Assembly (NCBI GenBank): GCA_913048175.1
Contig: CAJWVX010000012.1
Location: 1-41,663, forward strand
Direction: 5' to 3'
DNA length: 41,663 nucleotides
From: an uncultured Flavobacteriales bacterium
GTDB taxonomy: Bacteria > Bacteroidota > Bacteroidia > Flavobacteriales_E > Vicingaceae
Shown: positions 2,208 through 32,246 of the stretch, piece after piece
How the letters are laid out: every line of letters begins with the position of its first letter
Numbering within the stretch: position 1 is the stretch's first letter
Position numbers and translations under genes: made by a program
Notes under the pieces: generated by a model
The model's database searches: none
Told to the model about the DNA's origin: nothing
The model's input: only the letters and a program-made list of their open reading frames with translations

Positions 2208-3527
2208 ATGAAACTCAACACTTTAAATATTTCGATACTATCTACTCTAATTTTAGGTTCTATTTTTTTTATCTGTAGTTCCCATCAAATTATTGAAGAT
2301 GATTATGCCTTAGAAAACTATATTCGCTATGATGATTATATATATGATGATAGTATAAAAACAGTTTTACTACACAAATTTGGCTCTCAAATGAGCTATC
2401 CAATCATAAATATTAGAGCAAAAGAGTTTATTAAACTAAGTTTTGATGATTTAAGACGAGATAATAGCATTTACAACTACACTGTTGTTCATTGCGATGC
2501 TAATTGGGAACCGTCTGACCTAGAACAAAATGAATATATTGAAGGTTTTTTTGAAGATGAATTATTTGATTTTGAATATTCAAGTAATACAGATTTATAC
2601 TACACACACTATAACTTAACTCTTCCTAACGAAAATATGAAAATGACCTTATCCGGTAATTATATTATTATGGTTTATAAGGTTAACGATGCAGCACATC
2701 CAATTCTGACTAAACGTTTTATGATGTATGAAAGTAATGTATCTGTTGAGATGAACATTAAAAGGGCAACGGATGTAAATGAAAGTTATTTTAGACAAGA
2801 AGTAGATTTTAAAATTAACCATGATGGTTATGATATTAAAGATCCTTTTGGTAGATTAAATGTTGTTTTGATGCAAAACTATCGTTGGGATAATGCCATA
2901 TCTGGTCTAGAACCAAAATTTATTAAGGATACCGAACTGAACTATGACTTTAATAATGGTGAAAATGTTTTTGATGCTAACAATGAATTTAGAGCGTTTG
3001 ATTTAAAAAGCATTCGATACAATACCATCAGAGTAAAAAAAATTGAATTCAGTATTTTTGATAAAATGCAACATGCCTACTTACTAAATGATGAGAGACG
3101 CTCTTTTAAACAATACTATTCTAAAGTAGATTTAAATGGCAACTTTTTAATTAAACGTAATGAAGGTGATAACAGTGAAATTGAAGCCGATTATGTTAAA
3201 GTACATTTTACACTACCCTACTCTACTCCAATTAACGATGGTAGCCTTTATTTGTTTGGTAAATTTTGTGATTGGAAATTTAAAGAAGAGCTCAAATTAG
3301 ATTACGATACCGTTAACCGACAATACACCAAAGAAGTTTTACTTAAGCAAGGTTATTACAATTACCTATATTGCTTCGTTAAAGATGGCTCTAAAAACAC
3401 TGGAGATATTGCAATGGTTGAAGGTTCTCATTACGAAACCAAAAATGAATACTCTATTTTAGTTTACTATAGAGAAATAAACGACAGTTATGATAGACTG
3501 GTTGGATTTGCTGCTTCGAGTAATTAA
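2208..3527 (+). CDS. type IX secretion system Plug protein (DUF5103 family)
   Basis: Plug proteins close the periplasmic side of the SprA/Sov translocon of the T9SS when no cargo is passing through; this family was formerly annotated DUF5103. The 439-residue protein has an N-terminal hydrophobic export signal (residues 8-24). It then shows family hallmarks: KTVLLHKFGSQMSYPI, a LSFDDLR stretch, and VVHCDANWEPSDLEQNEYIEGF near residues 93-115. The rest is beta-rich, consistent with successive Ig-like domains. It is transcribed alone, divergent from nqrA, with a perfect hairpin downstream. A Cys follows the signal (FFICSS) but does not form a good lipobox. Assignment rests on motif recognition; a genome with PorT and a sorting-domain cargo protein supports it. 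Confidence 0.85.
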   Translation: MKLNTLNISILSTLILGSIFFICSSHQIIEDDYALENYIRYDDYIYDDSIKTVLLHKFGSQMSYPIINIRAKEFIKLSFDDLRRDNSIYNYTVVHCDANWEPSDLEQNEYIEGFFEDELFDFEYSSNTDLYYTHYNLTLPNENMKMTLSGNYIIMVYKVNDAAHPILTKRFMMYESNVSVEMNIKRATDVNESYFRQEVDFKINHDGYDIKDPFGRLNVVLMQNYRWDNAISGLEPKFIKDTELNYDFNNGENVFDANNEFRAFDLKSIRYNTIRVKKIEFSIFDKMQHAYLLNDERRSFKQYYSKVDLNGNFLIKRNEGDNSEIEADYVKVHFTLPYSTPINDGSLYLFGKFCDWKFKEELKLDYDTVNRQYTKEVLLKQGYYNYLYCFVKDGSKNTGDIAMVEGSHYETKNEYSILVYYREINDSYDRLVGFAASSN

Positions 3528-15747: not shown

Positions 15748-16470
15748 ATGTTAAGAATTAAAATAATCATATTAGCCCTTTCATTAGGTTTGTTTACTAA
15801 AGCTTTCGGACAAAGGCCAACTACCAAAAACTTGGCTAAGTTCGATCACCGTTTTATGCATTTTGGTTTTTTATTAGGCATCAATAATGCCTACTTTATT
15901 GCTGATCGGTTTCCTCCGACTGTTGCAGGTTCAGATAGCTTATTTGTTTTAGATGCAAAATCAGCTACTGGTTTTAATTTAGGTATTATATCATCGATGC
16001 ATCTTAGCCCTGCATTCAGTCTTAGATTTACTCCTAATTTAGCTTTCTCCTCAAGAAGTTTAATTTATCAGTTTAAAACTTATGAAGGAACAAAAGAATA
16101 TACTAAAGTTATAGAGTCAACATTAATTAATTTTCCACTTAGTATCAAATACAAATCGGTAAGAGTTAATAATTTTAGCGCTTACATTTTAGCAGGGGCC
16201 GCGTATAGTTTAGATTTAGCTTCTAATGCTGGCTATGAAAACACATCTACAGACCCTAACGATATAATTGTTGCCCTTAAAAAAGGTGATTATTTAGGTG
16301 AAATTGGTTTTGGAACCGACTTCTATTTAGAATATTTTAAATTCGGTTTAGAATTAAAAATGTCCTATGGTCTTAAAGACTTATTAGATCATGATGAAAC
16401 TCAGTTCTCTTCCCCAATAGATCAATTAAGATCTAAAATGTTCCTTCTTTCTCTTACCTTTGAGGGATAG
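15748..16470 (+). CDS. porT: type IX secretion system outer-membrane protein PorT/SprT
   Basis: PorT is an outer-membrane beta-barrel required for T9SS function and, in gliders, for motility. The 240-residue protein has a signal peptide (MLRIKIIILALSLGLFTKAFGQ) followed by the family opening NLAKFDHRFMHFGFLLGINN. Amphipathic strands then alternate (FSLRFTPNLAFSSRSLIYQF, LGEIGFGTDFYLEYFKFGLELKMSYGL) and the C-terminus is short and aromatic. Length matches known PorT proteins. Its place immediately downstream of ubiE is the conserved Bacteroidetes context and strengthens the call. The 37-base gap to ubiE suggests cotranscription. Confidence 0.88.
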   Translation: MLRIKIIILALSLGLFTKAFGQRPTTKNLAKFDHRFMHFGFLLGINNAYFIADRFPPTVAGSDSLFVLDAKSATGFNLGIISSMHLSPAFSLRFTPNLAFSSRSLIYQFKTYEGTKEYTKVIESTLINFPLSIKYKSVRVNNFSAYILAGAAYSLDLASNAGYENTSTDPNDIIVALKKGDYLGEIGFGTDFYLEYFKFGLELKMSYGLKDLLDHDETQFSSPIDQLRSKMFLLSLTFEG

Positions 16471-18263: not shown

Positions 18264-18734
18264 TCACAATTTAATCTTGTCTAAAATAACACCTATTTCC
18301 ATTGCAAAATTTAATGGATCTACAGGAGTGTTCTGCTCAATAACATAAGTGTATATTCCTGTTTCTTCATATTTCTTATTTGCTGCAACCAAATGTTCAC
18401 TGTCCCAAATATCTAACCCAGGTTCTCCAATATAATCTCCGTTGGCTGCTCTTATTTTTAAATCGTATTCTTTAATTAACTCTTTACCACTTGGGCTTAT
18501 TTCAGTTACTTTTACATTAGCAGTTTGGTATTGATATCCTGAAGCAAATCTAAATGACAAACTCATATTATAAACAACACTCTTATCTTCAACAGGAACT
18601 TTAAATGTTCTTACATCATTTTTTAACCATTCTAATTCTGGAGATAAATCTTGATGCTCAATGAATACTCTATTCTCTGGTTTACATGATATTAAACATG
18701 ATATTAATGCAATAATCGTTAGTGTTTTTTTCAT
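18264..18734 (-). CDS. gldH: GldH-like gliding-motility-associated lipoprotein
   Basis: A 156-residue lipoprotein with lipobox LISC and lipidated Cys17 (MKKTLTIIALISCLISCKPE). The mature part resembles GldH in order and spacing: W-L-K-N-D-V-R-T-F near 36-44, an acidic-then-YNMSLSFRFASGYQYQTANVKV segment (55-76), P-S-G-K, G-D-Y-I-G-E-P-G-L-D-I-W, and a terminal EIGVILDK. GldH is needed for gliding and stabilises the GldK/L/M/N T9SS complex in flavobacteria. Similarity is moderate and judged from memory, so a generic Bacteroidetes lipoprotein is possible. It is the last gene of the six-gene minus-strand run, 12 bases after the M48 gene. Confidence 0.5.
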   Translation of the reverse strand: MKKTLTIIALISCLISCKPENRVFIEHQDLSPELEWLKNDVRTFKVPVEDKSVVYNMSLSFRFASGYQYQTANVKVTEISPSGKELIKEYDLKIRAANGDYIGEPGLDIWDSEHLVAANKKYEETGIYTYVIEQNTPVDPLNFAMEIGVILDKIKL

Positions 18735-18746
18735 TTTTAGGTAATA

Positions 18747-19556
18747 TTATTGAGCCTTAATGTAGTAAGATTCAGCGTTAGGTAGCCATTCTTTTATTCT
18801 TTCAATTCTAATATCTTCACTAGGATGTGTTCTCATAAATTCGGGTGTTCCACCACTACCACCAACAGCCTTCATTCGGCCCCAAAATGGAATTGCTTCA
18901 GCTGGTTGATAACCTGCCATTGCCATAAATACCATTCCTAATTTATCTGCTTCGCTTTCTTGATTTCTTCCAAATGCTAACATCCCAACTTGAGAACCTG
19001 CACCTATTGCACCCATAAGGACAGTTTGCATCAGAACTGAATTTTCTTTCATTGCTATAGCAGCACCTGTTGATATTCCTTGAGCAACCATTCCTTGGCT
19101 CATCCTTTCATTCCCATGTCTAGCAATCGCATGCGCTATTTCATGCCCCATAACAACTGCTAATCCTTCTTCTGTTTTTGTTATTGGTAATATTCCTGTA
19201 TAAACCACCACCTTTCCACCTGGCATACACCAAGCATTTACAGTGTTTTCATCAATCAAATTAAACTCCCATTTATACCCTTTAATTCTACCAGACATTT
19301 TATTGTCTTTCATGTATTTCTCTACAGCAAGAGCAATTCTTTGACCTACCCTCTTAACCATTTTAGTTTGGTCCATATTATCTGCAACTGGAGGATTTTC
19401 TGATAAAAAAGATTGATACTGTGTTAAGCTCATACTCATCATCTGACTTTCTGGAAATAAACTTATTTGTCTTCTGCCAGAAATTGGAACTCTTGCACAA
19501 GACCACATTATTAGTGCGATAATTAGTATTGGAAATATTCTTTTTAATGTCTTCAT
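18747..19556 (-). CDS. M48-family metallopeptidase lipoprotein (LoiP/YcaL/BepA-like)
   Basis: A 269-residue zinc protease of the periplasm. The N-terminus MKTLKRIFPILIIALIMWSC carries a lipobox-like end with Cys20 as probable lipidation site. The zinc-binding HEIAH lies at 138-142, and the third zinc ligand is in ESEAD (200-204), followed by GMVFMAMAGYQPAEA and a THPSEDIRIERI end motif, all standard for M48C peptidases. Such enzymes trim misassembled outer-membrane proteins. It lies 31 bases after clpS and 12 before the GldH-like gene, so its natural role here may be quality control of the envelope proteins made nearby (inference). Confidence 0.9.
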   Translation of the reverse strand: MKTLKRIFPILIIALIMWSCARVPISGRRQISLFPESQMMSMSLTQYQSFLSENPPVADNMDQTKMVKRVGQRIALAVEKYMKDNKMSGRIKGYKWEFNLIDENTVNAWCMPGGKVVVYTGILPITKTEEGLAVVMGHEIAHAIARHGNERMSQGMVAQGISTGAAIAMKENSVLMQTVLMGAIGAGSQVGMLAFGRNQESEADKLGMVFMAMAGYQPAEAIPFWGRMKAVGGSGGTPEFMRTHPSEDIRIERIKEWLPNAESYYIKAQ

Positions 19557-19587: not shown

Positions 19588-19860
19588 TTAATTTATCTCT
19601 ACAGTTAAACCACTATCCCCTAAAAGTTCAGCCATTAATTCTAAATCTTTAAAGTTTCCCTTTTTAACAGCGCACTTACCTGTGTGATGGACTAATGTAG
19701 CACACTGTTCAGCCTGTAGAGCCTCATGTTTACAGACTTTAACTAATAAGTCTATTACATGGTCAAATGTATTTACATTATCATCAAACAATACCAAAAT
19801 ATGTTCTTTAACAACTTGTTCTTTTAAGTCTACAACTTCCTCAAATAATGTTTCTGTCAT
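19588..19860 (-). CDS. clpS: ATP-dependent Clp protease adaptor ClpS
   Basis: ClpS delivers N-end-rule substrates to ClpAP. The 90-residue protein has an acidic flexible N-terminus (residues 1-15) then LVLFDDNVNTFDHVIDLLVKV (22-42), equivalent to the NDDYTPM-type pocket, and LVHHTGKCAVKKG (56-68), with the conserved histidine that lines the N-degron pocket. Length is normal. It is separated from the stop of the 2344-residue gene by one base and precedes the M48 peptidase gene, so a cytoplasmic degradation adaptor sits inside an otherwise envelope-directed gene run. No clpA is visible in the window. Confidence 0.9.
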   Translation of the reverse strand: MTETLFEEVVDLKEQVVKEHILVLFDDNVNTFDHVIDLLVKVCKHEALQAEQCATLVHHTGKCAVKKGNFKDLELMAELLGDSGLTVEIN

Positions 19861-19861
19861 C

Positions 19862-22800
19862 TTATTGATTTTTTTTTATTAGTTCAAGAGCCTTATCTAC
19901 TCCAATTTTAACTCCTTTTTGAAACGCTATAGTTTTAGGGTTTTTAACACCCATGTCTTTCATTTCTATCTGTAAGTCTAAAGCCGATTGATAATCAGAG
20001 AAAGATCCAATCGTATAAACAGTTTTATCTTCTACTTCATAGTTTTCAACACCCCTACTATTAAGCTTTAAGAACAATCCTACTTCATCAATAGGAACGT
20101 CTTCTGAATACTCCCCTAACTGTACTTTAAACTCTAAGCCTAATTCTTTACTTACTTCACTAGGCTCTTTTTTTGGAGTAATTTGTAATTCAATATCATT
20201 CTCTAACAGGTCAGATTTAACTGAAATTTCTTCTTCAGAAGTCTCTATAAGTGGTGTTTCTTTATCTAGTCTTATTTCTTCAGGAATAATAGTTGTTTCA
20301 AGAATAGAAGTAACAGTTGCAACTGTTACTTTATTTCCGTCTTTATAAGCAACTACAAATGCATCAATAATTCCTAAGCCTCTAATTCTATCTTTAGCAA
20401 CATTTGCCTCAGCCAAAGTTTTATGTACTCCAGAAGTATACCTAATTAAACCGCTAGCAGTTCTTTCGCTATTTAATGGTGATACATTATTAAATTGTCC
20501 CTCAGTAACCTCCTTAGAGTATACACCAACTTGAATTGCATAAAATGCACCATCAATATTTCTTACATCTGTAGAAACACCATCTTTTACTTCTTCAGTT
20601 GTAATTGGTTCCGATTCCTCTAACGAAGGTTTAGTGTTGTTGTAATTATTTTCAGTTTCAACATTTGTTTCTGTTGAATTAAATTCAGGATTTGAGTTAC
20701 TTGCAATAGACTCTTTAACCACCGGTTTCTTATCTAATATTGCACGAGCCTCAGTCATACTTATTCGTTTACCATTAAAGAATCCGACCACAAATGCGTC
20801 ATTGTACCCAATGTCTCTAATCATTTTTTTAGCTTCATTAGCAACGTTAAACGATTTAAATAACCCAGCAGTATATCTTGTTATTCCACGCCCTGCATCT
20901 TCAGCTAAAATAGGTGCAAAACCTCTAAAGTGATCTTGTGGTATTGGGTTTCTAAATGCTCCAATTTGTACTTTAAATACTAACCCTTCAGGTAACTTAG
21001 AAGAAACTGGTATTCTTCTACTGTTACTATAAGCTGCTTTATTGTTATTGATAACAAAAATAGATTCACTAAGAACTGATGGAATAGCATCAATATCTTC
21101 AGGAATAGAACTACTAATTACTGATTCTTCAATGTTGGTAACAGGTTCTTCTTCTAATAGTTCTTTGATAATAGTATCATCAATATTAGAAATTTCTACT
21201 TCATTTAAAACTAGCTCTTCAGCAGTTATGTCTTTATTATTCGATTCTTCCAAAGGATTAACAATCCCTTCTTCATTTAGAGCATCCTCTTCCGAACTTA
21301 TAATTAACTCATCCACAACAGGCTCCTCAATACTAACAGTTTCTTCTTCAATTTTCTGTTCGCTTGAAATTGGATCTTCACTACTTGATAGTTCCTCTTC
21401 ATTTATTGACTCATCAGTATTCAACTCTACGTTTGCTTCAACTAGTTCTTCATTCATATTTTCAGCTTCTTCTGCTAAAGCTATAGTTTCTTCTTCAACA
21501 ATATTTGAAGCAGTTCTAGTCATTACTTTATCCATAAAATCTTGATCATATGTTTCTATTTTTTCTATAACGGTATAATTATTTGCTTCATTTTCACCAG
21601 CATTAATTAAAATAAAATCTGATTTATCAGCAGCTTCTTTTGCTTGATCTTCTTTATTTGCAGCACTCATTTTTAACTCTGCAGATTTAGTTTCATTATC
21701 AGTAATCATCTTCTCTAATTTTTCAATTTGAGCAGTTTTTTTAGCTTTATCTTCTTCCGATGACGCTCCCTCAGCCATTGCTCTCAAACTTATACCTAAT
21801 TGGCCTTGATCTTTAGCTTCCTCTTCAAATTTTTGAGCCTCAACATATTCAACTTCTGCCTCCTTTTCTAATCTTCTTTTTTTAGCCTTTAACTCTGAAA
21901 ATTCTATATACTCTTCTGAATTTTTAATTGATGTAATTTCAACTGGCTGAAGTTTTAGAAGAACTTCTTGATCTTCTGAAGAAATTAGGCTGTTTGAAGC
22001 AATAAGCAATTCAACATCTTCAATTACATTATTTGCTAAAGAACTCTCTTCATTCAATTGACTAGATTCTTCATTCACTTCTAACAATTCTTCACTTAAT
22101 TCAGTTTCTTCTAACACAATAGCATTTATGCTATTGTCTGCTTCTGATGAATTTACAACTGTAACTGAAGCTTCCGTTAATGTTAATCCTGATAAAGCAT
22201 AAATTGCCATCACTTGTTTTTCAATAGCCTTCATTTCTAATTCGTATGCTTTTTGTAGCGCTCTTTCTTTTAGAACAAAGGTTGAAGCATTTTTAGCTTC
22301 CTCTCTTTTAATCTTAGCTTGATCATAGTAATTGTCTGATTCTTCAGTAAACATTTCAGCTCTTAAAACTTCATCAGAATTAGATTCTGAAATAGTTGAT
22401 CTTAACTCAGATGTTACTGCTTGATTGTTGTAATATTCATTTCTATTAGCATTTTCATAAATTTTAGCTACTTTTTCTTGCTTTCTTTGAGATTGCTCAA
22501 TTAAATTGTTAACTTCATTAAATGCATCCTCTTTGTCATCTTCAGAAGAAATTTCGTTGGCGACAATCAATTTTGTTTCTGCTTTCTCATTTAAACTTCT
22601 TGCTTTTTCTTTTAATTCATTTACGTTAATCAATTCTATTTTAGATTGAGTAGAAGTATAATTAAATTTATTGTTATACTTCAAATTAGAAAAATCATCC
22701 TCGGGACTATCTAAATTGTTTTCTGTCAAATCTTCCTTTAGTAATTTATTGCCAATTAAAGTTCTATTTGAAACAACTTCTTCAGTATTATTAGAAGTTT

Positions 22801-25800
22801 CATTAATATTCGTTTCCTCAACAGTTGGCTCTTCAGAAGTAGTGCTAGATAGGTCAATCTGAGTCGTTTCTTCTATCCTTGCTATAGGTTCCTCTGAAGA
22901 AATTGATTCTTCTGGAAGCATAGTTTCCGCTTGCATTTTATACAATCCAGAAAACTCTTGTTGCTCAATTAAATCACTTTCTAAAACAGCAATTTCATTG
23001 GCAATATCATTTTTCTGATCATTATCTACTGTTGTCAGTATAGATTTTCTCTCTTTTATTTTTGATTCTATTGTTTTTTCCCAATTATTATGAATAGCAA
23101 CCTTTTGCATCGTTGTTTCATAATTATCTTCCTTATTAACAGCATCTAATTTAGTTTTGTAATTATCTTTATAATCAGTCCCTTTATAAACTTCACTACT
23201 TGAAATAGCTTCCTCATTATTCGCAATTGACTCTTCAGTGTTAGACTCTAATTCTTCTATTGAGTTATTATCCTCTTCATTACTTTTAACTTCTTCAGAA
23301 CTCGCAATTGACTCTTCATAATTTTTTACAGTTTCTTCATTATTTGTTATCACTTCTTCTGAAGTTTCAGTTTCATTAGTAGCTAATGGATCTAAAGTTG
23401 AACTTTCTGTTGGTGAAAACGATTCTGCTTGCATAGCATATAGAGCTGAAAATTCTTGTTGCTCTAATAAATTACTTTCTAAAACAGCAATTTCATTTTC
23501 AATCCCATCTTTATCAGCAACATCAGCTTCAGCTAATTCCATTTTTTTAATCAGAATTTCTTGCTCAGTTGCACTTGCCCAATTTTCATGAACTTTAGAT
23601 TTTTTTATATAAGATTCAAAATCATCTTTATCTTCAATCTTTTCTAATTCAGAAGTATATTTAGATTCATAATCAACAATACTAACAGATGTATTTATTT
23701 CTTCATTATCTGGTATCACTTCTTCTGAAGTTTCAGTTTCATTACTAGCTAATGGATCTAAAGTTGTGATTTCTGTTGGTGTTATCGATTCTGCTTGCAT
23801 AGAATATAGAGCTGAAAATTCTTGTTGCTCTAATAAGTTACTTTCTAGAATAGCAATTTTATTTTCAATGCCATTTTTTTCTTCAGAATTAGCTTCAGCT
23901 AATTCTATTTTTTTAATCAAAATATCTTGCTCTGTTGCAGTTGCCCAATTCTCATGAACTCTAGATTTTTTAGAATAAGATTCAAAATCATCTTTATCTT
24001 CAATTGTTTTTAGTTCAGAAGTATATTTAGATTCGTAATCAATTAGTCCTCCATCTGCATTCATAATATTAACTTCTTCTTTACTGTATTTATCAAGAAC
24101 TTCATTAGTAGATTTTGTAACAGATAAACTCTCTTCAATAAGAGTAGATGTATCATTTATTGTTAAGTTATTTGCAGCTACTAATTCTTCAAGCGCTATA
24201 AATTCTTTTTGCTTCTCTAGCTTTAAAGCTTTTAAAACAGTACTTTTTTCTTCTAAATTAACTTTCTTACCTAAATCTGTTTCTGATACTATTTGAATAT
24301 CTCTTATCGTAATTTCCTCATCAATATCCTTTATCCAACGCTCATTAATATTCATAATAATTACTGAACGCTCATCTTCAGTCATATCATTACCAGCATC
24401 AGCTAACTCAGAACTATACCTTGTGTTATAGTCAATAATCTTTCCTGATTCATCAATAATTTTAAATTCATCTTTGTGATCTTCTATTTTATAAATTTCC
24501 GAAGAAGAAACTATTTCATTTGTCACATTTTCTTCAGTATATAATCCAACTAACCCTTCTTTTTCAAAATAAACAACATCCTTTTCTAATTTCAATTTAG
24601 TTGCAGGTTCTACAGTCTTTCCTATATTAGAAACCTCATTTAAAGAAGCTATTACAGACTGAGTTGAAGCTACTTTATTTTTAGCTATAAGATAACTTTC
24701 ATTAGATTTAATTAGTTTAGATTTAGTTCTATCTAAATCAAATTCAGTATCTTCAACATCAATTTTTAAAGCCTCAATTCTTTCTTCTAAATCTGATTTT
24801 TCACTTTTCTTTTTGGTAACTTTTTTAAGATCTTCTAGCTTATTGATTGTTTCTGTTAACTCATAAGCTCTATTTTTCAACTCTACAACATCATTCCTAT
24901 CGTTATTATAAATAATTTGTTTTGCTGATAGATCATTAGTTAAAATGTCTTCCTCAGTATTTAGAGCAGATTCACTATGGTATGTTGCAGAAGTAATCTT
25001 ATCTAAAGCTGATAAATTAGTTTCAGCTTCAGTTCTATCTCCATTGTCAATATCATTATTAACTGCTTCTTGTAAAGATTTAACCTTTTCTATATCACTC
25101 TCTCTCTCTACAACCTCATTATCTAATGTTTTCGCTAAAGCAATCGCAGCAACAACCTCATTTATCAAATTAACTGCTTCTATTTTTTTAAGTTCAGCCT
25201 CTTTCGAATTACCGTTATCAGAAAGTGCTTTTGACTCATTAAAAATTTCTTTTGCCTTAATACTTTTTGTGCTTGCTATTTGGTAAGAATTATTTGCTTT
25301 TTCTTTTGATTTTGCCGCTTGTTCAATAATTCTTGAAGCTGTTTCATCTGTTTTGTTTACAATTTGATCATCAGTCAAATCTGTATACTTAGATTTAATT
25401 TCTGATTCATTTTCTGAATTACTTGCCAAACTATTATTAAACTCCTCTAAACTTGTATTTACATCAAGCTTGGCTTTTTGCTTTAATAAATTCTGAACAA
25501 TTAAAGGATCACTCATGTCAAAAACATCAGATTCATCAAACAAGTTTTTTACAACTAATTTTTCTTCATCACCTACTCCAACTAACCTTAACTCTTGTTT
25601 TAACGCTCTAAAGCCTTCTAATTTAGGTAATTCTATAGTAGCAGAATGAACTGGTGCATCATCCGTAGTTTCAACTAATAATTTAAATTTACCTCCATTC
25701 TTAGGAAAAACAAGTAAATATTCTCCTGATTCATTATTACTTGTATACACGCCATATTTCCTATCATTATCAATACCTTTTATTGTTATAGTTACAGATT

Positions 25801-26896
25801 TTACATCGGGGTTAGATTCAGAGACAAAAAATCCTTTAATTACAGAATTCCCTGTTGGTTCAGGATCAACTTTAACACGATAAACTGTAATTTCTCCTTG
25901 TTTACTTGCTCTAGAAGATGCAAAATAAGCTAGTTTATTATCTAAATCAGATATATAAAGGATATCGTCATCTGGTGTATTAATTGGAAAATCTAAATTT
26001 ACAGGGAAAGACCACTGACCAGAGGCATCTTTCGTAGATTTAAATATATCATACCCTCCCATACTATTAAATCCTTTAGAACTAAAATAAAGAGTTCTTC
26101 CATCAGGATGTAAAAAAGGATAATCCTCGTCAAATTCAGAATTTACAAAACCACTTATTAACACTGGTTTACTCCATTCACCAGAAGGTAACTTTATAAC
26201 TCTATAAATATCTTTTCCGGTAGCCCCTGATTTCCCATAAGAAGAGTAAACCACCATATCTTTTTTTTCTCCTAAATAAATTACCGAGTGTTCATTATTA
26301 TTAATATCAAATTTTGTTTTAAAATCATCTGGTTTAACAATTACTTTCCCTCCAATTCCATTTAGATTATAGGATCTAAAAAAATCAGATTCTTTGATTT
26401 CTTTTTTACTTAAAACACCAATATCAACTATACTTTTTATTAGTTTTTGACCATTTTCACACATTTCAATCTCTCGATCTACTTTATACTTTTTAAGTTC
26501 TTTAGATGTCGCTTTTTCTTTAAATTTATTGTAATGAACTATTGCAGCAGCAAACTCATAATTATGATGATAAGCTTTTGCTAAAAAATAGTAAGCAACT
26601 GGATCAACATTAGGACTCGTAATAGAGAATTTTAGATAATTAAGTGATTTTTCTTTATCTCTTGATCCAAATAAAACACAAGTGCCATATTTATAATTAT
26701 AACTTGGATCTTTAGGGTAATTACTTAGTAATTGAGCAAAAAGTTTTACTCCATCCACATAATTAGCCTGCTCAAACATTTCGTTTGCAGCCACTTTTAA
26801 ATCCTCCTCACTAGAATACTGTGCCCTAGAGGTAAATACAATTGACATTAATAACGTTACTGTCAGTATTATTTTATGTGTATTTTTATTTATCAT
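19862..26896 (-). CDS. giant TPR / PD40-propeller / CRD / coiled-coil / triple-SPOR protein (PorE-like N-terminus)
   Basis: A 2344-residue exported protein with a signal peptide (MINKNTHKIILTVTLLMSIV...RAQ). Domains in order: TPR-like helices (about 35-150); PD40/WD40-type propeller blades (about 195-345, e.g. HPDGRTLYFSSKGFNSMGGYDIF near 262); a carboxypeptidase-regulatory-like fold (about 348-425); an enormous acidic, Glu/Ser/Asn-rich coiled-coil region (about 430-1960) containing a tandem 122-residue repeat; and three SPOR-like domains (about 1968-2055, 2115-2200, 2250-2341), each with a (F/A)xVQ(I/V/L)G motif. The first three match the order in PorE, a T9SS protein that anchors to peptidoglycan through an OmpA_C domain; here SPOR-like domains, which typically bind denuded peptidoglycan, take that place. 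Role in T9SS is inference. It lies 68 bases after the unknown 1484-residue gene and 1 base before clpS. Confidence 0.75.
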   Translation of the reverse strand: MINKNTHKIILTVTLLMSIVFTSRAQYSSEEDLKVAANEMFEQANYVDGVKLFAQLLSNYPKDPSYNYKYGTCVLFGSRDKEKSLNYLKFSITSPNVDPVAYYFLAKAYHHNYEFAAAIVHYNKFKEKATSKELKKYKVDREIEMCENGQKLIKSIVDIGVLSKKEIKESDFFRSYNLNGIGGKVIVKPDDFKTKFDINNNEHSVIYLGEKKDMVVYSSYGKSGATGKDIYRVIKLPSGEWSKPVLISGFVNSEFDEDYPFLHPDGRTLYFSSKGFNSMGGYDIFKSTKDASGQWSFPVNLDFPINTPDDDILYISDLDNKLAYFASSRASKQGEITVYRVKVDPEPTGNSVIKGFFVSESNPDVKSVTITIKGIDNDRKYGVYTSNNESGEYLLVFPKNGGKFKLLVETTDDAPVHSATIELPKLEGFRALKQELRLVGVGDEEKLVVKNLFDESDVFDMSDPLIVQNLLKQKAKLDVNTSLEEFNNSLASNSENESEIKSKYTDLTDDQIVNKTDETASRIIEQAAKSKEKANNSYQIASTKSIKAKEIFNESKALSDNGNSKEAELKKIEAVNLINEVVAAIALAKTLDNEVVERESDIEKVKSLQEAVNNDIDNGDRTEAETNLSALDKITSATYHSESALNTEEDILTNDLSAKQIIYNNDRNDVVELKNRAYELTETINKLEDLKKVTKKKSEKSDLEERIEALKIDVEDTEFDLDRTKSKLIKSNESYLIAKNKVASTQSVIASLNEVSNIGKTVEPATKLKLEKDVVYFEKEGLVGLYTEENVTNEIVSSSEIYKIEDHKDEFKIIDESGKIIDYNTRYSSELADAGNDMTEDERSVIIMNINERWIKDIDEEITIRDIQIVSETDLGKKVNLEEKSTVLKALKLEKQKEFIALEELVAANNLTINDTSTLIEESLSVTKSTNEVLDKYSKEEVNIMNADGGLIDYESKYTSELKTIEDKDDFESYSKKSRVHENWATATEQDILIKKIELAEANSEEKNGIENKIAILESNLLEQQEFSALYSMQAESITPTEITTLDPLASNETETSEEVIPDNEEINTSVSIVDYESKYTSELEKIEDKDDFESYIKKSKVHENWASATEQEILIKKMELAEADVADKDGIENEIAVLESNLLEQQEFSALYAMQAESFSPTESSTLDPLATNETETSEEVITNNEETVKNYEESIASSEEVKSNEEDNNSIEELESNTEESIANNEEAISSSEVYKGTDYKDNYKTKLDAVNKEDNYETTMQKVAIHNNWEKTIESKIKERKSILTTVDNDQKNDIANEIAVLESDLIEQQEFSGLYKMQAETMLPEESISSEEPIARIEETTQIDLSSTTSEEPTVEETNINETSNNTEEVVSNRTLIGNKLLKEDLTENNLDSPEDDFSNLKYNNKFNYTSTQSKIELINVNELKEKARSLNEKAETKLIVANEISSEDDKEDAFNEVNNLIEQSQRKQEKVAKIYENANRNEYYNNQAVTSELRSTISESNSDEVLRAEMFTEESDNYYDQAKIKREEAKNASTFVLKERALQKAYELEMKAIEKQVMAIYALSGLTLTEASVTVVNSSEADNSINAIVLEETELSEELLEVNEESSQLNEESSLANNVIEDVELLIASNSLISSEDQEVLLKLQPVEITSIKNSEEYIEFSELKAKKRRLEKEAEVEYVEAQKFEEEAKDQGQLGISLRAMAEGASSEEDKAKKTAQIEKLEKMITDNETKSAELKMSAANKEDQAKEAADKSDFILINAGENEANNYTVIEKIETYDQDFMDKVMTRTASNIVEEETIALAEEAENMNEELVEANVELNTDESINEEELSSSEDPISSEQKIEEETVSIEEPVVDELIISSEEDALNEEGIVNPLEESNNKDITAEELVLNEVEISNIDDTIIKELLEEEPVTNIEESVISSSIPEDIDAIPSVLSESIFVINNNKAAYSNSRRIPVSSKLPEGLVFKVQIGAFRNPIPQDHFRGFAPILAEDAGRGITRYTAGLFKSFNVANEAKKMIRDIGYNDAFVVGFFNGKRISMTEARAILDKKPVVKESIASNSNPEFNSTETNVETENNYNNTKPSLEESEPITTEEVKDGVSTDVRNIDGAFYAIQVGVYSKEVTEGQFNNVSPLNSERTASGLIRYTSGVHKTLAEANVAKDRIRGLGIIDAFVVAYKDGNKVTVATVTSILETTIIPEEIRLDKETPLIETSEEEISVKSDLLENDIELQITPKKEPSEVSKELGLEFKVQLGEYSEDVPIDEVGLFLKLNSRGVENYEVEDKTVYTIGSFSDYQSALDLQIEMKDMGVKNPKTIAFQKGVKIGVDKALELIKKNQ
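22880..24430 (-). repeat. tandem 122-residue (366-base) repeats inside the giant SPOR protein
   Basis: Two nearly identical units begin at Tyr954 and Tyr1076, exactly 122 residues (366 bases) apart, each opening DYESKYTSEL and containing VHENWA, LLEQQEFSALY and SNETETSEEV or TNETETSEEV. A diverged copy begins at about residue 823 (IIDYNTRYSSEL) and another at about 1242 (DYKDNYKTKL, later IEQQEFSGLYKMQAE). The high DNA identity of the two central units points to recent unequal crossing-over, so copy number may vary between strains. The pattern is coding, not CRISPR. Confidence 0.8.
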
Positions 26897-26964: not shown

Positions 26965-29900
26965 TTAATTTTCAAACTTCCTTAAAAAATCTTTCTTCTT
27001 TTTTGCTGAAGAATACATGTACTGATAGGATTCTTGCTTTTTTAAACCTTTAGATTTTCGCTTATCAGATTTTGTTTCTGTAATAGCAGAATTAAAGTCT
27101 GCATTAGAAGAAATTGCCTGCATAATCCCACGAGTATAAGTAAAGAAATACCAATTATTTCTATCAACCTCTATATATACAGTTAGAATATCTCCACTTC
27201 TCTTTTTTATCAACTCAACTTTACCATCTACATACTTATTAATTTGCTTATTCTGAATATTACTCAATCCTATTTTTCCAAAAGATTTAAACGATTTACC
27301 TTCATCATCCCACCTCATTTTTAAATCATTAAACACTAAAGTTTTTTCTAAAGATTTAGGCACCTTCTTAAATTCTCCATTTAAATTTGCTTGAGCAATT
27401 AACTTATCGCCTTCTACGGAACCAACAATTTCTCTTAAACCTTTTTCAAAGGTTGGTCTATCCAATTTAGCAGGATCTAAAGAACTTGCCTCTTCCAATT
27501 GTTTAGTCATCTTTTTTAGAGCATCATCACTAAAGAAGAAATCTACAACAACTACCATATCTAAAATTATTTCTCCATCTAATTGATTATGCTCAACTAC
27601 CCCAGCCGTTGTTAAAGTAACTTGACCTGTTTTGTTTCCTAAATTAATGTCACCTTCACCGTAAGCTTTACAGTTTTTTGTATTTAAACTCAAATAGTTA
27701 CCACCAAATGACATTTCTTGTAATTTATCTTTATTAGATATTTGATATTCCTCTTTTTCCTTATCGTAGTATAAGAATCCTTCAGCAGGCATTACAGGTA
27801 TATGACTATACTTCTTCTTATTGTTAATAAAAGAAGTGTATACACCTAATGAATCTGGACTTAAGAAGACACTAACTGATAAAGGGTTACCATTAATATC
27901 TTTTGTAGTACTATCTACAGGTATATATATACTTGAAGGATTTATTTCCGACTCGAAACTAAACCAGTTTCTTGCTAATAAATCGCATTCATGAAATATT
28001 CTGGAATATCCATCAAAAGTTAGGTATTCATTATTAGCAAATAATTTAACCTTACCATAAAACTCATAATTCGGACTCAATGTAAACTTATCAGTATTTT
28101 TCAATTCTGCTGTAGCATAAGTCTGTCCCGTTGTATCAACACCAATATTATCTAAGTAAATAGCTTGTCTTTGTTCGATTTCATCTGTGTAATCAATATA
28201 ACCACTTCCTGCAAACTTCCTTTTACCAAATACATTTAATGATGCACTATAAATATTATGATTTTGAGTTATAAAACTTGCAACAACTCTAGTATTATTA
28301 AGTGTTCGCATTTTTGCTTTTTTATCTATTGTTACATCCCCACTATCCGGATATAACATTGCATCTGCAATATTCATAAACTTAACACCTTTAGCATAAA
28401 TCACTTTTTTCTTCAAATCATACTTTGCTTTGGATGAGAAAAAATTTAAAGAATCCTGTTCTGGATGAACTGATATAAACTGTGCTCCCTCAAGTTTAAC
28501 ACCAGAAGCATCTGTAGCTTCAGATTCACCAGCAGAAAGTTCAATATCATCATTGTCCATATACCACTTAAACTCCTCCATAAAACAGATATACTGCATA
28601 GGGTCAAAGTTAATAAACGATCCTCCACCGTTAGACCTAAACTGTCCAAACCGTTCGGTAAAAGTCACATAGGCGTTAACGTTTACGGTAGAAAAAGCAA
28701 GAGCATCTTCATCTTCACTATCTGTATCTTTCAACCTGAAATCAGCCGTATCAGCCTGAAAATCTTTAAACTTAAAACTTATCAAATCAGACTCTAACTC
28801 TGCCTTTCGGAATTCAAATACCCCCCGACCTGATAGTCCATCAGGCTCTATCATTGTTTGACCATGCATAAACGATTTCATATCATACATTGCAATTGGC
28901 TTACTTCTTTCCCTATGAATCATGATATTTTTCTTTGGATACCATCTTGTCATAACATCTTCGCCTTCTACTGGTGGAAATTCTACTGCAACAGGGTTTT
29001 CTTCTACATTAAAGTTCTGAGCTATTGCATTCATTGAGTCAGGTAAGAACACGAAATCATCAGAGTATGTTGTAGATGTAATGTATTCTAAATCACCACT
29101 ACCTCTTAAACCTTCATTACTCATTTTAATAGTATCGTTAAAAGTTCCTTTACCACCATACATTGGGTATCCATCTTTTGGTGTTGTTTTAACAAATCCT
29201 AAAGAGTGATCAGGTTGTAATGTAAGTGTTTCTTCAAAGTCCGGAAAAATTCCAGCAGAAAGCATTGTACCTTTAAATTTTAGTTGATCATTATCAAAAT
29301 TATCCAGACTATCAATTGTAAAAGGCTCTAAGTGAAAGTGAAAATTGTCTTTCTTATAAACACCGCCTTGAATAGATCGTTTATTGTAAAAAACATAAGA
29401 ATCTCTGTCACTATTCAATATCGGATATTCATCTGCAAGTTTTACTCCTGATTTATTGTTTGGTTTATCAATTAAAAGATTTCCAGTTATTTTCTCTATA
29501 ACTGTTTTTACAGGTGTTACAACTGGATCACCATGCTTATCTATTCTCCCATCTTCGGCATAAATTCGTAAAGAATCAACGTTAGGCATATCAATTTTAA
29601 ATTCGTCATATTTAAAAGAAAAATTGTGGCCCATAATATCAAACCTTCCTGCTTGAATTGCTCCACTAAAATCAAAATCTCTATTCTTTTTTAACGTTAT
29701 TTCTCTACGAGAAGGATAAATTATTACCTCTTGAGAATCACTTACATTAACACTATTAATTCCTTTCATGAACAAATCATAATTCAATAAACTTAATGTT
29801 GCGTTACTTTCCCCTTTCATATTAGATAAAAAACCAATAACATCATAATCTACATTACCACCACTAGCCTTCACCCATGCTGTTAACTTGTCTTTCATAA

Positions 29901-31419
29901 TGAAAAATTTACTCTCATAATTATAATTAATGAACCCCTTATTAGATAGATTCAACAACATAGATTCTACAGAAGAATATGACATAAGCGAGAATTCAGC
30001 CAATTGATCATTAGTAATGTAGTTAGTATCTAACTTTTCGGATAACTTATAAATAGTATAAAGTGGATGTTTATCAGACATCCCCATTAACCTTAAGTAT
30101 GAATCCTTTCTAAAATAATTTGATGAAATAAAAGTTGCATCCGTCTTTGTTCCTCCCGGAAGATTTCTAAATTCTATCATTGGAGAATCTATTTTCCAAT
30201 CCAATGTCTCAAAATTCATATCAACTTGGTGATATGAATTAAAATAAGGTGTTATTGCAATACCTTTATTATCTCTAATTAAAGATACCTTTCTATCGTT
30301 AATGAAAAATTTAAATGATAAACCTGGGTGATAGATAGAATCTTCTTTAATATATAATGTAGACGAGGCCATTTTAGCAACAATTCTCTCTGGTTTTATT
30401 ATGAATGTTTTGGAGGCCATTTTTAAGAATGGAACATTTTTTCTTTTAAAGATTAAATAAGCATCTTGCTTATCTGTTCCTCTACCAAATACTTTTCTTC
30501 CATAAAGTGAAAAAGCTCCGATATAATCTACCCCCTTTGCAATGTCTTCTATCTCAAATAATGCTTCATAAGAATCAAATCTTGGATAGGTAGCTTTTTC
30601 CATTTTCACATTTGCCAATACTTTTTCAAATAAAACGCCTTTCATTGGCTCATCAAAATAATAGTAATCGTAAAATGTAACATCCTTTATTTCATAGTTA
30701 GGCGATTTTACACTAAAAGAATAATTATTGATATCCGCATAAACAGAATCCACCGGTAATCCAGCTCGCTCCCATGTAACCCTACCTCCTTCGCCAATCC
30801 ATTTAGCTTCTGTAGGATAATAAACTCCTTTTGTATTTTTAATTACAGAACTATCTCCTTTAGAATAACAAGTTAAATTTAATGCTTCAAATTCAATAGT
30901 TGGTAGACTATCATAACCAAATTTATAATTACTGTTATTAGCTGCCCAAGAATTAGAAGCTGACTTGTACATTAGATTTTCTGTAAACAAATTGTTACAA
31001 GCTTTTAAATAGTCTGTAAAATGTTTTTTACTTTTTCCATTAATTAACTTTATTAAAATATTTTGCCAACTTTCAAAACTCTTTTCTGTTTGATATTTAC
31101 TATTAACAAATTGAGAAACTGTAAATAAATAATTCTTAAAATCAGGGAAAGCTTTTTTTCTCTTTTTTAACATCAGGTTAGAAACCTTATAAACCCCTTG
31201 CCTTTCCTTCTCAGAAAATATACCTTCAAACCAAGACCATGAAAACTCATCCATTACGGCAACACCATCTTGCTTTCTAGAATGTGTTAAAAACTGTTCC
31301 ATCTCTTTAAAAAAGAGAGAAGAATCAGACGAAAAGTGTTTTATTTTATCTTGTGAGTATCCCGTTAGAGATAATAATAAAAAAAATATTACGATAATAT
31401 GCTTTAAAAATTTATTCAT
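26965..31419 (-). CDS. very large exported protein of unknown function (1484 residues)
   Basis: I do not recognise a named family. The protein has a signal peptide (MNKFLKHIIVIFFLLLSLTGYSQ) and no later hydrophobic helices, so it should be periplasmic or surface-located. A helical N-terminal part (30-180) is followed by long beta-rich stretches with repeated short strands (e.g. WIGEGGRVTWERAG near 215, YPMYGGKGTFNDTIK near 755), reminiscent of stacked jelly-roll or LptA/AsmA-like folds, though that is only an impression. A helix-rich insert near 450-515 (HPLYTIYKLSEKLD...KLTAW) could form a winged-helix-like module. The C-terminus is basic (SDKRKSKGLKKQE). Its ATG overlaps the prmA stop by 4 bases and the giant SPOR gene follows after 68 bases, suggesting one transcript. 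No T9SS sorting domain is visible. Confidence 0.8.
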   Translation of the reverse strand: MNKFLKHIIVIFFLLLSLTGYSQDKIKHFSSDSSLFFKEMEQFLTHSRKQDGVAVMDEFSWSWFEGIFSEKERQGVYKVSNLMLKKRKKAFPDFKNYLFTVSQFVNSKYQTEKSFESWQNILIKLINGKSKKHFTDYLKACNNLFTENLMYKSASNSWAANNSNYKFGYDSLPTIEFEALNLTCYSKGDSSVIKNTKGVYYPTEAKWIGEGGRVTWERAGLPVDSVYADINNYSFSVKSPNYEIKDVTFYDYYYFDEPMKGVLFEKVLANVKMEKATYPRFDSYEALFEIEDIAKGVDYIGAFSLYGRKVFGRGTDKQDAYLIFKRKNVPFLKMASKTFIIKPERIVAKMASSTLYIKEDSIYHPGLSFKFFINDRKVSLIRDNKGIAITPYFNSYHQVDMNFETLDWKIDSPMIEFRNLPGGTKTDATFISSNYFRKDSYLRLMGMSDKHPLYTIYKLSEKLDTNYITNDQLAEFSLMSYSSVESMLLNLSNKGFINYNYESKFFIMKDKLTAWVKASGGNVDYDVIGFLSNMKGESNATLSLLNYDLFMKGINSVNVSDSQEVIIYPSRREITLKKNRDFDFSGAIQAGRFDIMGHNFSFKYDEFKIDMPNVDSLRIYAEDGRIDKHGDPVVTPVKTVIEKITGNLLIDKPNNKSGVKLADEYPILNSDRDSYVFYNKRSIQGGVYKKDNFHFHLEPFTIDSLDNFDNDQLKFKGTMLSAGIFPDFEETLTLQPDHSLGFVKTTPKDGYPMYGGKGTFNDTIKMSNEGLRGSGDLEYITSTTYSDDFVFLPDSMNAIAQNFNVEENPVAVEFPPVEGEDVMTRWYPKKNIMIHRERSKPIAMYDMKSFMHGQTMIEPDGLSGRGVFEFRKAELESDLISFKFKDFQADTADFRLKDTDSEDEDALAFSTVNVNAYVTFTERFGQFRSNGGGSFINFDPMQYICFMEEFKWYMDNDDIELSAGESEATDASGVKLEGAQFISVHPEQDSLNFFSSKAKYDLKKKVIYAKGVKFMNIADAMLYPDSGDVTIDKKAKMRTLNNTRVVASFITQNHNIYSASLNVFGKRKFAGSGYIDYTDEIEQRQAIYLDNIGVDTTGQTYATAELKNTDKFTLSPNYEFYGKVKLFANNEYLTFDGYSRIFHECDLLARNWFSFESEINPSSIYIPVDSTTKDINGNPLSVSVFLSPDSLGVYTSFINNKKKYSHIPVMPAEGFLYYDKEKEEYQISNKDKLQEMSFGGNYLSLNTKNCKAYGEGDINLGNKTGQVTLTTAGVVEHNQLDGEIILDMVVVVDFFFSDDALKKMTKQLEEASSLDPAKLDRPTFEKGLREIVGSVEGDKLIAQANLNGEFKKVPKSLEKTLVFNDLKMRWDDEGKSFKSFGKIGLSNIQNKQINKYVDGKVELIKKRSGDILTVYIEVDRNNWYFFTYTRGIMQAISSNADFNSAITETKSDKRKSKGLKKQESYQYMYSSAKKKKDFLRKFEN

Positions 31420-32246
31420 TTTTTAATTAAATGTAATATGGTCCAATCATTTTTACTTTCTGTATAAATCAATTCTAAGTTTAACTGAGAAGTAGCTTCC
31501 AATAAAACCTCTTTATCGGAACTAAAGAAGCCACTCAATAATAAACTTCCATCTTTTTGTAAAGCTTTAACATAAATTGCCAAATTATTCAATAAAATAT
31601 TTCTGTTAATATTAGCTATTATAACGTTAAACTCCTTATCAATTTTTTCTGCCCCTCCCATTTTAACAATAATATCTTCGCAATTATTATTCCTAATATT
31701 TTCTATTGTGTTATTATAAGCCCACTCATCTATATCTACCGCTTCAACTATCTCTGCATTTTTCATTTTTGCCAATATTGCTAAAACCCCAGTTCCACAC
31801 CCCATATCTAACACTTTTTCACGTGTTAAATCTAACGATAGTAAACGCTTAATCATTAGGTAGGTAGTTTCATGATGCCCTGTACCAAAAGACATTTTTG
31901 GGTCTATTATAACATCAAATTCAACATCATCTATCTTGTTATGAAAAGGTGCTCTTATTACGCATTGATTTTCTACATTAATTAAATCAAAATTTTTCTC
32001 CCACTCTGCATTCCAATTCTGATCGGCAATTAACTTTGTAACATAAGTAATTGTAAAGTCAGTATTAGCAATTATAACCATAGAAGATATTAAGTCTTCT
32101 TTAAAATCATCTTTTTGAATATAAGCTTCTACTCCTGTTTCAGTCTCTACAAAACTTTCAAAACCAATATCAGCTAATTCTGCAATTAAAATATCTCTAC
32201 CAACCTCTAAAGGGGTAATTTCTGCTTTAAATTCTAAGTATTCCAT
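31416..32246 (-). CDS. prmA: ribosomal protein L11 methyltransferase
   Basis: PrmA uses SAM to trimethylate lysines and the N-terminus of ribosomal protein L11. The 276-residue protein has the N-terminal substrate-recognition domain (1-100), the family motif DPKMSFGTGHHETTYLMI (about 121-138), SAM motif I VLDMGCGTGVLAILA, VDIDEWAYNNTIENI, and IIANINRNIL, the PrmA form of the catalytic motif. It is complete. Its stop overlaps the next gene's start (ATGA-type), so the unknown 1484-residue protein is probably translated by coupling. It is the first gene of the six-gene minus-strand run. Confidence 0.92.
   Translation of the reverse strand: MEYLEFKAEITPLEVGRDILIAELADIGFESFVETETGVEAYIQKDDFKEDLISSMVIIANTDFTITYVTKLIADQNWNAEWEKNFDLINVENQCVIRAPFHNKIDDVEFDVIIDPKMSFGTGHHETTYLMIKRLLSLDLTREKVLDMGCGTGVLAILAKMKNAEIVEAVDIDEWAYNNTIENIRNNNCEDIIVKMGGAEKIDKEFNVIIANINRNILLNNLAIYVKALQKDGSLLLSGFFSSDKEVLLEATSQLNLELIYTESKNDWTILHLIKK

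Follow-up and report, generated by a model that had tools for sequence, protein, structure and literature searches.

PorE, as described in PMC7192894, is built from TPR, propeller, CRD and a peptidoglycan-binding C-terminus in this order, and its five-bladed propeller spans residues 167-435. PMC5053529 counts 424 proteins in the phylum whose domains follow a PG1058-like order, and per species, in some cases, 2 to 13 homologues of PG1058. Consequently, a TPR-PD40-CRD module alone does not mean a role in the T9SS. CHU_0125, a protein of 656 amino acids with an OmpA_C end, supports outer-membrane integrity according to PMC5891637. The parts of the wall recognised by SPOR and by OmpA_C differ. SPOR is the domain of the septal proteins FtsN, DamX, RlpA and CwlC; in PMC6895207, the RlpA residues Q270 and R309, the latter belonging to a basic patch, equal Q251 and R285 of FtsN, and roles in glycan contact are described for them. 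In the Tol-Pal system the TolB propeller is joined to the OmpA_C domain of Pal.

The window analyzed here is a stretch of 41,663 nucleotides from an uncultured Flavobacteriales bacterium of the Vicingaceae (contig CAJWVX010000012.1). It encodes a giant protein of 2344 amino acids. The plus strand of positions 19862-26896 is closed by many stops, and the open reading frame lies on the minus strand. With this correction of the strand, the architecture put forward in the original prediction was confirmed: a signal peptide, a TPR-PD40-CRD module, an acidic spacer and three SPOR units. The features of the gene are as follows (residue numbers refer to the protein).

19862..26896, minus strand: giant open reading frame, 2344 amino acids, ATG start (open-frame reading; relatives at 73 loci)
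26822..26896, minus strand: signal peptide, residues 1-25, without lipobox, SPI-type by inspection
26447..26815, minus strand: TPR-like helices, residues ~28-150 (sub-threshold TPR_14; hhalign to PorE-like TPR regions of the same genome)
25856..26404, minus strand: PD40 propeller region, residues ~165-347, shorter than that of PorE (PD40 22.9 bits)
25577..25849, minus strand: CRD-like domain, residues ~350-440 (hhalign to the CRD region of PorE-like proteins)
20996..25456, minus strand: acidic spacer, residues 481-1967 (composition, length, regional conservation)
24194..24424, minus strand: W-type helical unit 1, residues 825-901 (repeat profile)
23804..24031, minus strand: W-type helical unit 2, residues 956-1031, near-copy of unit 3 (repeat profile and DNA tandem repeat)
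23438..23665, minus strand: W-type helical unit 3, residues 1078-1153 (repeat profile and DNA tandem repeat)
22940..23164, minus strand: W-type helical unit 4, residues 1245-1319 (repeat profile)
22421..22624, minus strand: A-type helical unit 1, residues 1425-1492 (repeat profile)
22193..22360, minus strand: A-type helical unit 2, residues 1513-1568 (repeat profile)
20741..20995, minus strand: SPOR unit 1, residues 1968-2052, glycan-contacting residues conserved
20312..20560, minus strand: SPOR unit 2, residues 2113-2195, glycan-contacting residues conserved
19883..20146, minus strand: SPOR-like unit 3, residues 2251-2338, basic residue lost

The giant proteins form a real and conserved family. 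A scan of genome contigs yielded 73 related loci, with record titles including Flavobacteriales, Vicingaceae, Fluviicola and Brumimicrobium. Many genomes contain relatives about as long, so the giant protein is no assembly artefact. For several relatives the first ATG following a stop was taken as the start, or the start is truncated by the contig end. SPOR units were counted with a profile seeded on the three units of the window protein. Among 58 stop-terminated relatives, three units were present in 35, as in the window protein, two in 18 and none in five; at another 15 loci the contig ends within the gene. The open reading frames without SPOR are L020, L029, L045, L047 and L074. The next open reading frames of L020, L045 and L074 cluster together, that of L020 resembling the giant spacer, and L047 and L074 contain unread bases. 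The 18 two-SPOR relatives include L056, L059, L062, L078 and their kin (Fluviicola, Brumimicrobium and similar), in which a third SPOR unit was not recognised; in L062, the member read through to its end, unit 2 is followed by nearly 200 residues of another kind. L059 (CP034120.1) is titled Glaciecola amylolytica, and Glaciecola is a gammaproteobacterial genus. Its giant protein and neighbours are Fluviicola-like, and the title looks wrong.

Using the SPOR unit 1 profile at 1e-20, the giant protein was detected in 41 of the 46 genomes of the window's order, and in 31 of the 32 with a completeness of 90% or more and a contamination of 5% or less. The match lies in an open reading frame of at least 1700 codons in 37 of the 41 carriers and in one of fewer than 800 codons in the other four. 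An even sample of the phylum contained the giant open reading frame in at least 2 of 395 genomes, its own and one other, with at most 13 candidates scored per genome; the protein is therefore not a general division factor. Among the matches listed from the open-licence PMC literature, no title or abstract beginning described a SPOR-tailed TPR-PD40 protein of Bacteroidota. We regard the family as a new variation on the envelope proteins with a TPR-PD40-CRD module. A Chryseobacterium genome paper (PMC10710014) reportedly mentions a SPOR domain.

No lipobox-like motif was found in any of 71 relatives with an in-frame upstream stop (first 40 amino acids from the chosen ATG, some of these ATGs being clearly internal). 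No NCBIfam model scored above its cut-off on the giant protein, and nothing notable was matched when the window protein alone was compared with the PDB. In Pfam, TPR_14 reached a sub-threshold 14.6 bits at residues 34-71 (cut-off 23.5), and PD40 matched a single stretch at residues 251-285 with 22.9 bits (cut-off 20.9). For the CRD-like domain, the family profile matched carboxypeptidase M in the PDB (E 7.5e-4). A family profile of the N-terminal module, built from the window protein and 57 of the 73 loci, was compared with an alignment of 11 TPR-PD40(-CRD) proteins of the same genome. The hhalign match had a probability of 100 and an E value of 1e-77 and ran through TPR, propeller and CRD, which supports the predicted membership of the module in the PorE superfamily. 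In the propeller segment of the hhalign alignment 65 residues of the giant protein stood opposite 154 of the PorE candidate of its own genome. Thus, about 89-90 residues are absent, and the propeller probably has fewer blades than that of PorE.

The giant gene is part of a same-strand run of six genes in the order prmA, 1484-residue protein, giant protein, clpS, M48 protease and GldH-type lipoprotein. Its partners in this run are listed below.

31416..32246, minus strand: prmA, first gene of the run (Pfam PrmA; 37 of 73 loci)
26965..31419, minus strand: large secreted-looking protein, 1484 amino acids, directly upstream of the giant gene (38 of 73 loci)
19588..19860, minus strand: clpS, whose start codon lies 1 bp beyond the stop of the giant gene (Pfam ClpS 54.3 bits)
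18747..19556, minus strand: M48-family metalloprotease, BepA/LoiP-like (16 of 73 loci)
18264..18734, minus strand: GldH-type lipoprotein (Pfam GldH_lipo 60.2 bits, cut-off 27; 1 of 73 loci)

A PlsY-type open reading frame was among the two nearest upstream in 34 of 71 loci, and a ClpS-type one among the three nearest downstream in 26 of 57. These names rest on one member of each cluster, and the neighbour counts are lower bounds, as flanks are often short. The GldH-type lipoprotein stays below its NCBIfam cut-off (55.6 versus 78.7 bits). The 1484-residue protein gave Pfam matches only below cut-off. It is 78-82% identical in L019-L023 and 30-43% identical further away. Among the genomes of the phylum 14 hold this protein, 12 of them without a detected giant protein and two with it (at most 13 giant candidates scored per genome), which rules out an obligatory functional pairing of the two. 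Elsewhere in the window, genes for the T9SS plug protein (2208-3527) and for PorT/SprT (15748-16470) scored above their NCBIfam cut-offs. A scan of the window gave 81 promoters versus 75 expected (sd 8.9) and 8 terminators versus 4.6 expected (sd 1.9).

The original prediction saw in the giant protein a PorE with a swapped anchor. This view was not upheld. The best-scoring named NCBIfam model was that of CHU_0125 (NF053607) with 108.4 bits at a cut-off of 620, and the PorE model (NF052230) gave 66.8 bits at a cut-off of 600, over positions 293-450 of 648 only. The own genome contains 41 matches to the PorE model. The best of them, a PorE-type OmpA_C protein (G000:C43:185-2107), covers positions 7-647 of 648 with 530 bits, a score below the NCBI cut-off of 600; it favours the PorE over the CHU_0125 model by 530 to 391 bits. 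Two of the three observations named in the original prediction as speaking against it were thereby made, or nearly so. The missing lipobox does not discriminate here, because this PorE candidate likewise has no Cys in its first 50 residues.

A PorE-type OmpA_C protein of at least 500 bits was found in 45 of the 46 order genomes, among them 40 of the 41 carriers of the giant protein. The cut-off of 600 was reached in 4 of the 46; of the remaining 42, one lacked a match to the PorE model at E 1e-100. The set of outside carriers comprised 20 genomes, of which those of L019, L021 and L024 already belonged to the order set. Among the 17 further genomes 12 reached 420 bits and none reached 600. The other five (L078, L084, L086, L087 and L052) lie at 291-372 bits, and coexistence with PorE is not established there.

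A tree of 30 rows, which took in 14 of the 73 relatives and the window protein and was calculated without a reference PorE sequence, placed the 15 giant proteins on one side of a branch with support 92/89. Together with two paralogue units from contig C140 they formed a group (100/100) apart from 13 other paralogues including the PorE candidate. These two units belong to L098:1400-4354 (G000:C140), a protein of 985 amino acids with two copies of this type of N-terminal module and no Pfam SPOR match, which is the best match to the module in the own genome. In view of the coexisting PorE-type protein and the position of the module in another clade, we reject a replacement of PorE. The giant protein seems to accompany PorE rather than to replace it, and is best explained as a putative paralogue of PorE and CHU_0125 within the TPR-PD40-CRD superfamily. 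It shares with PorE the domain order and differs in having three SPOR units for OmpA_C, a spacer of ~1490 residues, a propeller shorter by ~90 residues and no lipobox. From CHU_0125, whose model fits it best, it differs in the C-terminal domain and in length.

These results also bear on a proposed T9SS or gliding anchor, in which the N-terminal module would bind T9SS parts in a PorE-like manner and the SPOR tail would fix some machines at particular peptidoglycan sites, alongside the PorE-type protein. We consider this improbable. The superfamily of the module, SprA in 45 of 46 order genomes, a GldH gene nearby in the window and in L021, and the T9SS plug and PorT genes of the window are consistent with it. 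Against it stand the higher score of the module with CHU_0125, the separate clade, the coexistence with a PorE-type protein and the restriction of GldH to 1 of 73 loci (many flanks being short), as well as the abundance of such proteins, both in the own genome and in the 2 to 13 homologues per species cited above. The only ties to the T9SS are the T9SS-bearing genomes and the nearby GldH gene.

The C-terminus was predicted to carry three SPOR-like units instead of OmpA_C. Both statements were borne out at the sequence level. Pfam detected no OmpA match in the giant protein at E 5 and SPOR in its place, with 21.1 bits for the whole protein at a cut-off of 21. Unit 1 was the sole unit of the window protein to pass by itself (23.2 bits); unit 2 remained sub-threshold (13.6 bits, E 0.09) and unit 3 gave no Pfam SPOR match. 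When all six frames of the genome were searched with Pfam SPOR at E 0.001, four other places were listed and the giant protein was not. The units were aligned for the window protein and 25 of the 53 SPOR-bearing relatives. At E 0.1 Pfam SPOR matched unit 1 in 26 of 26 aligned sequences, unit 2 in 9 of 26 and unit 3 in 13 of 18. The family profiles of units 1, 2 and 3 found the SPOR structure of CwlC (1X60) with E values of 6e-5, 0.018 and 3e-5, respectively; for unit 3, pentatricopeptide designs outranked 1X60 through summed weak repeats. The profile of unit 1 matched unit 2 with 99.9% and unit 3 with 99.7% probability. By sequence profile, all three units thus look like SPOR.

The residues equivalent to those in glycan contact were placed by hand on the conserved SPOR motifs. 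All 26 sequences of unit 1 and all 26 of unit 2 have Gln at the position of RlpA Q270/FtsN Q251 and Arg or Lys at that of RlpA R309/FtsN R285. Unit 3 has the Gln in 13 of 18 sequences and a basic residue in none of the 18. Consequently, units 1 and 2 are likely glycan binders. The giant protein shares the SPOR family and, in two units, the conserved Gln and basic residue with FtsN, DamX, RlpA and CwlC. It differs from them in having three units and a TPR-PD40 front end, and no enzyme or transmembrane domain was found in it.

SPOR units of this type also occur in other proteins of the genome, namely two TPR-PD40 proteins, two barrel-like proteins and one amidase. The TPR-PD40 proteins, L092:5936-8833 and L093:788-2752, are shorter paralogues with two and one terminal SPOR units, respectively. 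They have the TPR-PD40 front end and the SPOR tail in common with the giant protein and differ from it in their lengths of 966 and 655 amino acids, their short spacers and their position in the tree, where they are not its sisters. L097:367-2433 (G000:C2) combines a DUF6089 barrel-like region and a TSP3-like stretch, both sub-cut-off, with three SPOR units; OmpA/OprF-type proteins carry OmpA_C at this place. L094:668-2542 (G000:C84) contains a stretch 51% identical to the SPOR unit 2 region of the giant protein, and its C-terminal OMP-barrel-like match is sub-cut-off. L096 is an Amidase_3-SPOR protein, in which SPOR is sub-cut-off in Pfam and matched at E 5e-19 by the family profile. This protein, whose SPOR domain is related, might produce denuded glycan.

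The occurrence of such units in L092:5936-8833, L093, L097 and L094 would suit a general, non-septal envelope strut, in which SPOR serves as a plain peptidoglycan anchor in place of OmpA_C and the outer membrane is held to the wall all round. This explanation is rather doubtful, as the spacer looks too long for it and as, in PMC6895207, denuded glycan is placed at the septal ring and the peptide stem would block SPOR binding.

The spacer comprises 1487 amino acids with 17.3% Glu, a pI of 4.28 and a charge of about -191, in agreement with the giant acidic spacer of ~1500 residues claimed before. Profiles seeded from the window protein's own units revealed four W-type units of ~79 residues and two A-type units of ~68 residues. 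A DNA tandem repeat with a period of 366 bp and 89% matches takes in two of the W-type units. In the PDB the spacer matched myosin, SMC and tropomyosin, which we read as helical composition only. Across relatives the copy number of W-type and A-type units ranges from 0 to 6 each; in the 18 two-SPOR relatives W-type units occur in none and A-type units in one.

Identity was determined by region. Compared with the three close relatives L019, L021 and L023, identity is 65-81% across TPR, propeller and CRD; SPOR unit 1 is 80-84% identical to four relatives. The linkers of the spacer are rich in indels and reach 11-59% identity with four relatives (18-59% with L019, L021 and L023). The repeat units are 41-68% identical and gap-free in comparison with L019, L021 and L023, save the third W-type unit, all or most of which is absent from L019 and L023. 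In the more distant L024 this unit is absent, the fourth W-type unit has a 14-residue gap and three repeat units have small gaps. The spacer is the least conserved part of the protein. It reads as folded beads on a disordered string whose length would change by unit duplication.

The length of the spacer ranged from 1022 to 2242 residues with a median of 1332 in 50 sequences, window included. It is variable and never short, and the spread rules out a strict length ruler. Such a spacer seems far longer than the distance from outer membrane to wall, and its length is therefore not accounted for by simple bridging. The spacer might itself be the working part, a helical-hairpin array binding clients, ions or envelope proteins, which the N-terminal module and the SPOR tail only locate. 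Gap-free repeat units between indel-rich acidic linkers, the variable copy number of both unit types and the strong negative charge are in line with this idea; the low conservation of the spacer and the near absence of either unit type from the two-SPOR relatives render it distinctly improbable.

With moderate confidence we propose that the giant protein is a soluble periplasmic tether whose SPOR tail would dock on septal glycan and place the TPR-PD40-CRD module there for a coupling similar to that by Pal and TolB. The original prediction had named a marking of septal peptidoglycan as one option; as an option it is supported, and it is the best of the readings considered. The architecture, conservation, distribution and PorE-type coexistence reported above are read from the sequences themselves; from them we infer glycan binding, septal position, partner, reach and role. 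The signal peptide suggests export by Sec. SPOR units 1 and 2 would then bind glycan stripped of peptides by amidases at the division septum, as their conserved contact residues suggest, and unit 3 may stabilise this binding or take another ligand. The modular helical spacer might give the anchored protein a reach of tens of nanometres, so that the TPR-PD40-CRD module at the far end could keep a partner from the outer membrane or the periplasm in place at the division site. The protein would thus act as a one-piece Pal/TolB that couples the outer envelope to the septal wall in constriction and separation.

This septal tether is favoured by the three CwlC-related SPOR units with conserved contact residues in units 1 and 2, by the high identity of SPOR unit 1 next to poorly conserved linkers, by the amidase L096 as a possible source of denuded glycan in the same genome, and by the presence in 41 of 46 order genomes and nearly all of those of good quality. 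The better-scoring named model, CHU_0125, supports outer-membrane integrity according to PMC5891637 and points in the same direction. Like Tol-Pal, the giant protein joins a propeller to a wall-binding domain, and analogous work is proposed for it; it differs in being a single chain without a TolB or Pal match over cut-off. None of the 46 order genomes has TolB over cut-off (10 have sub-cut-off matches). In the own genome no Pal lipoprotein passes the cut-off, and the Pal model gives 15 OmpA_C matches below it. This leaves room for a Pal/TolB-like role of the giant protein. The models for TolB and Pal could have been adjusted for other phyla, and the own genome's OmpA_C proteins could do such work, which counts against the tether. 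Also against it, prmA, PlsY in relatives, clpS and M48 are not division genes, the spacer exceeds what bridging would need, unit 3 has lost its basic residue in all 18 aligned sequences, no more than two units are recognised in 18 of the 53 relatives with SPOR, and the phylum sample yielded few carriers.

As to naming, a TPR-PD40 protein should bear the name PorE only if it also has an OmpA_C part and orthology. The giant protein is a concrete candidate for coordinating outer-membrane constriction with the wall in Bacteroidota without a canonical TolB-Pal pair, and its presence in cultured Fluviicola and Brumimicrobium strains makes it testable. A further-reaching view, unlikely as it is at present, is that in such lineages the single giant chain does the work of TolB and Pal; exchanges of OmpA_C for SPOR in several other envelope proteins of this genome would then widen this into a general rewiring of wall attachment. 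In this view, a shortened PD40 propeller module, an expandable helical spacer and tandem SPOR units reading denuded septal glycan would let outer-membrane constriction follow amidase activity directly.
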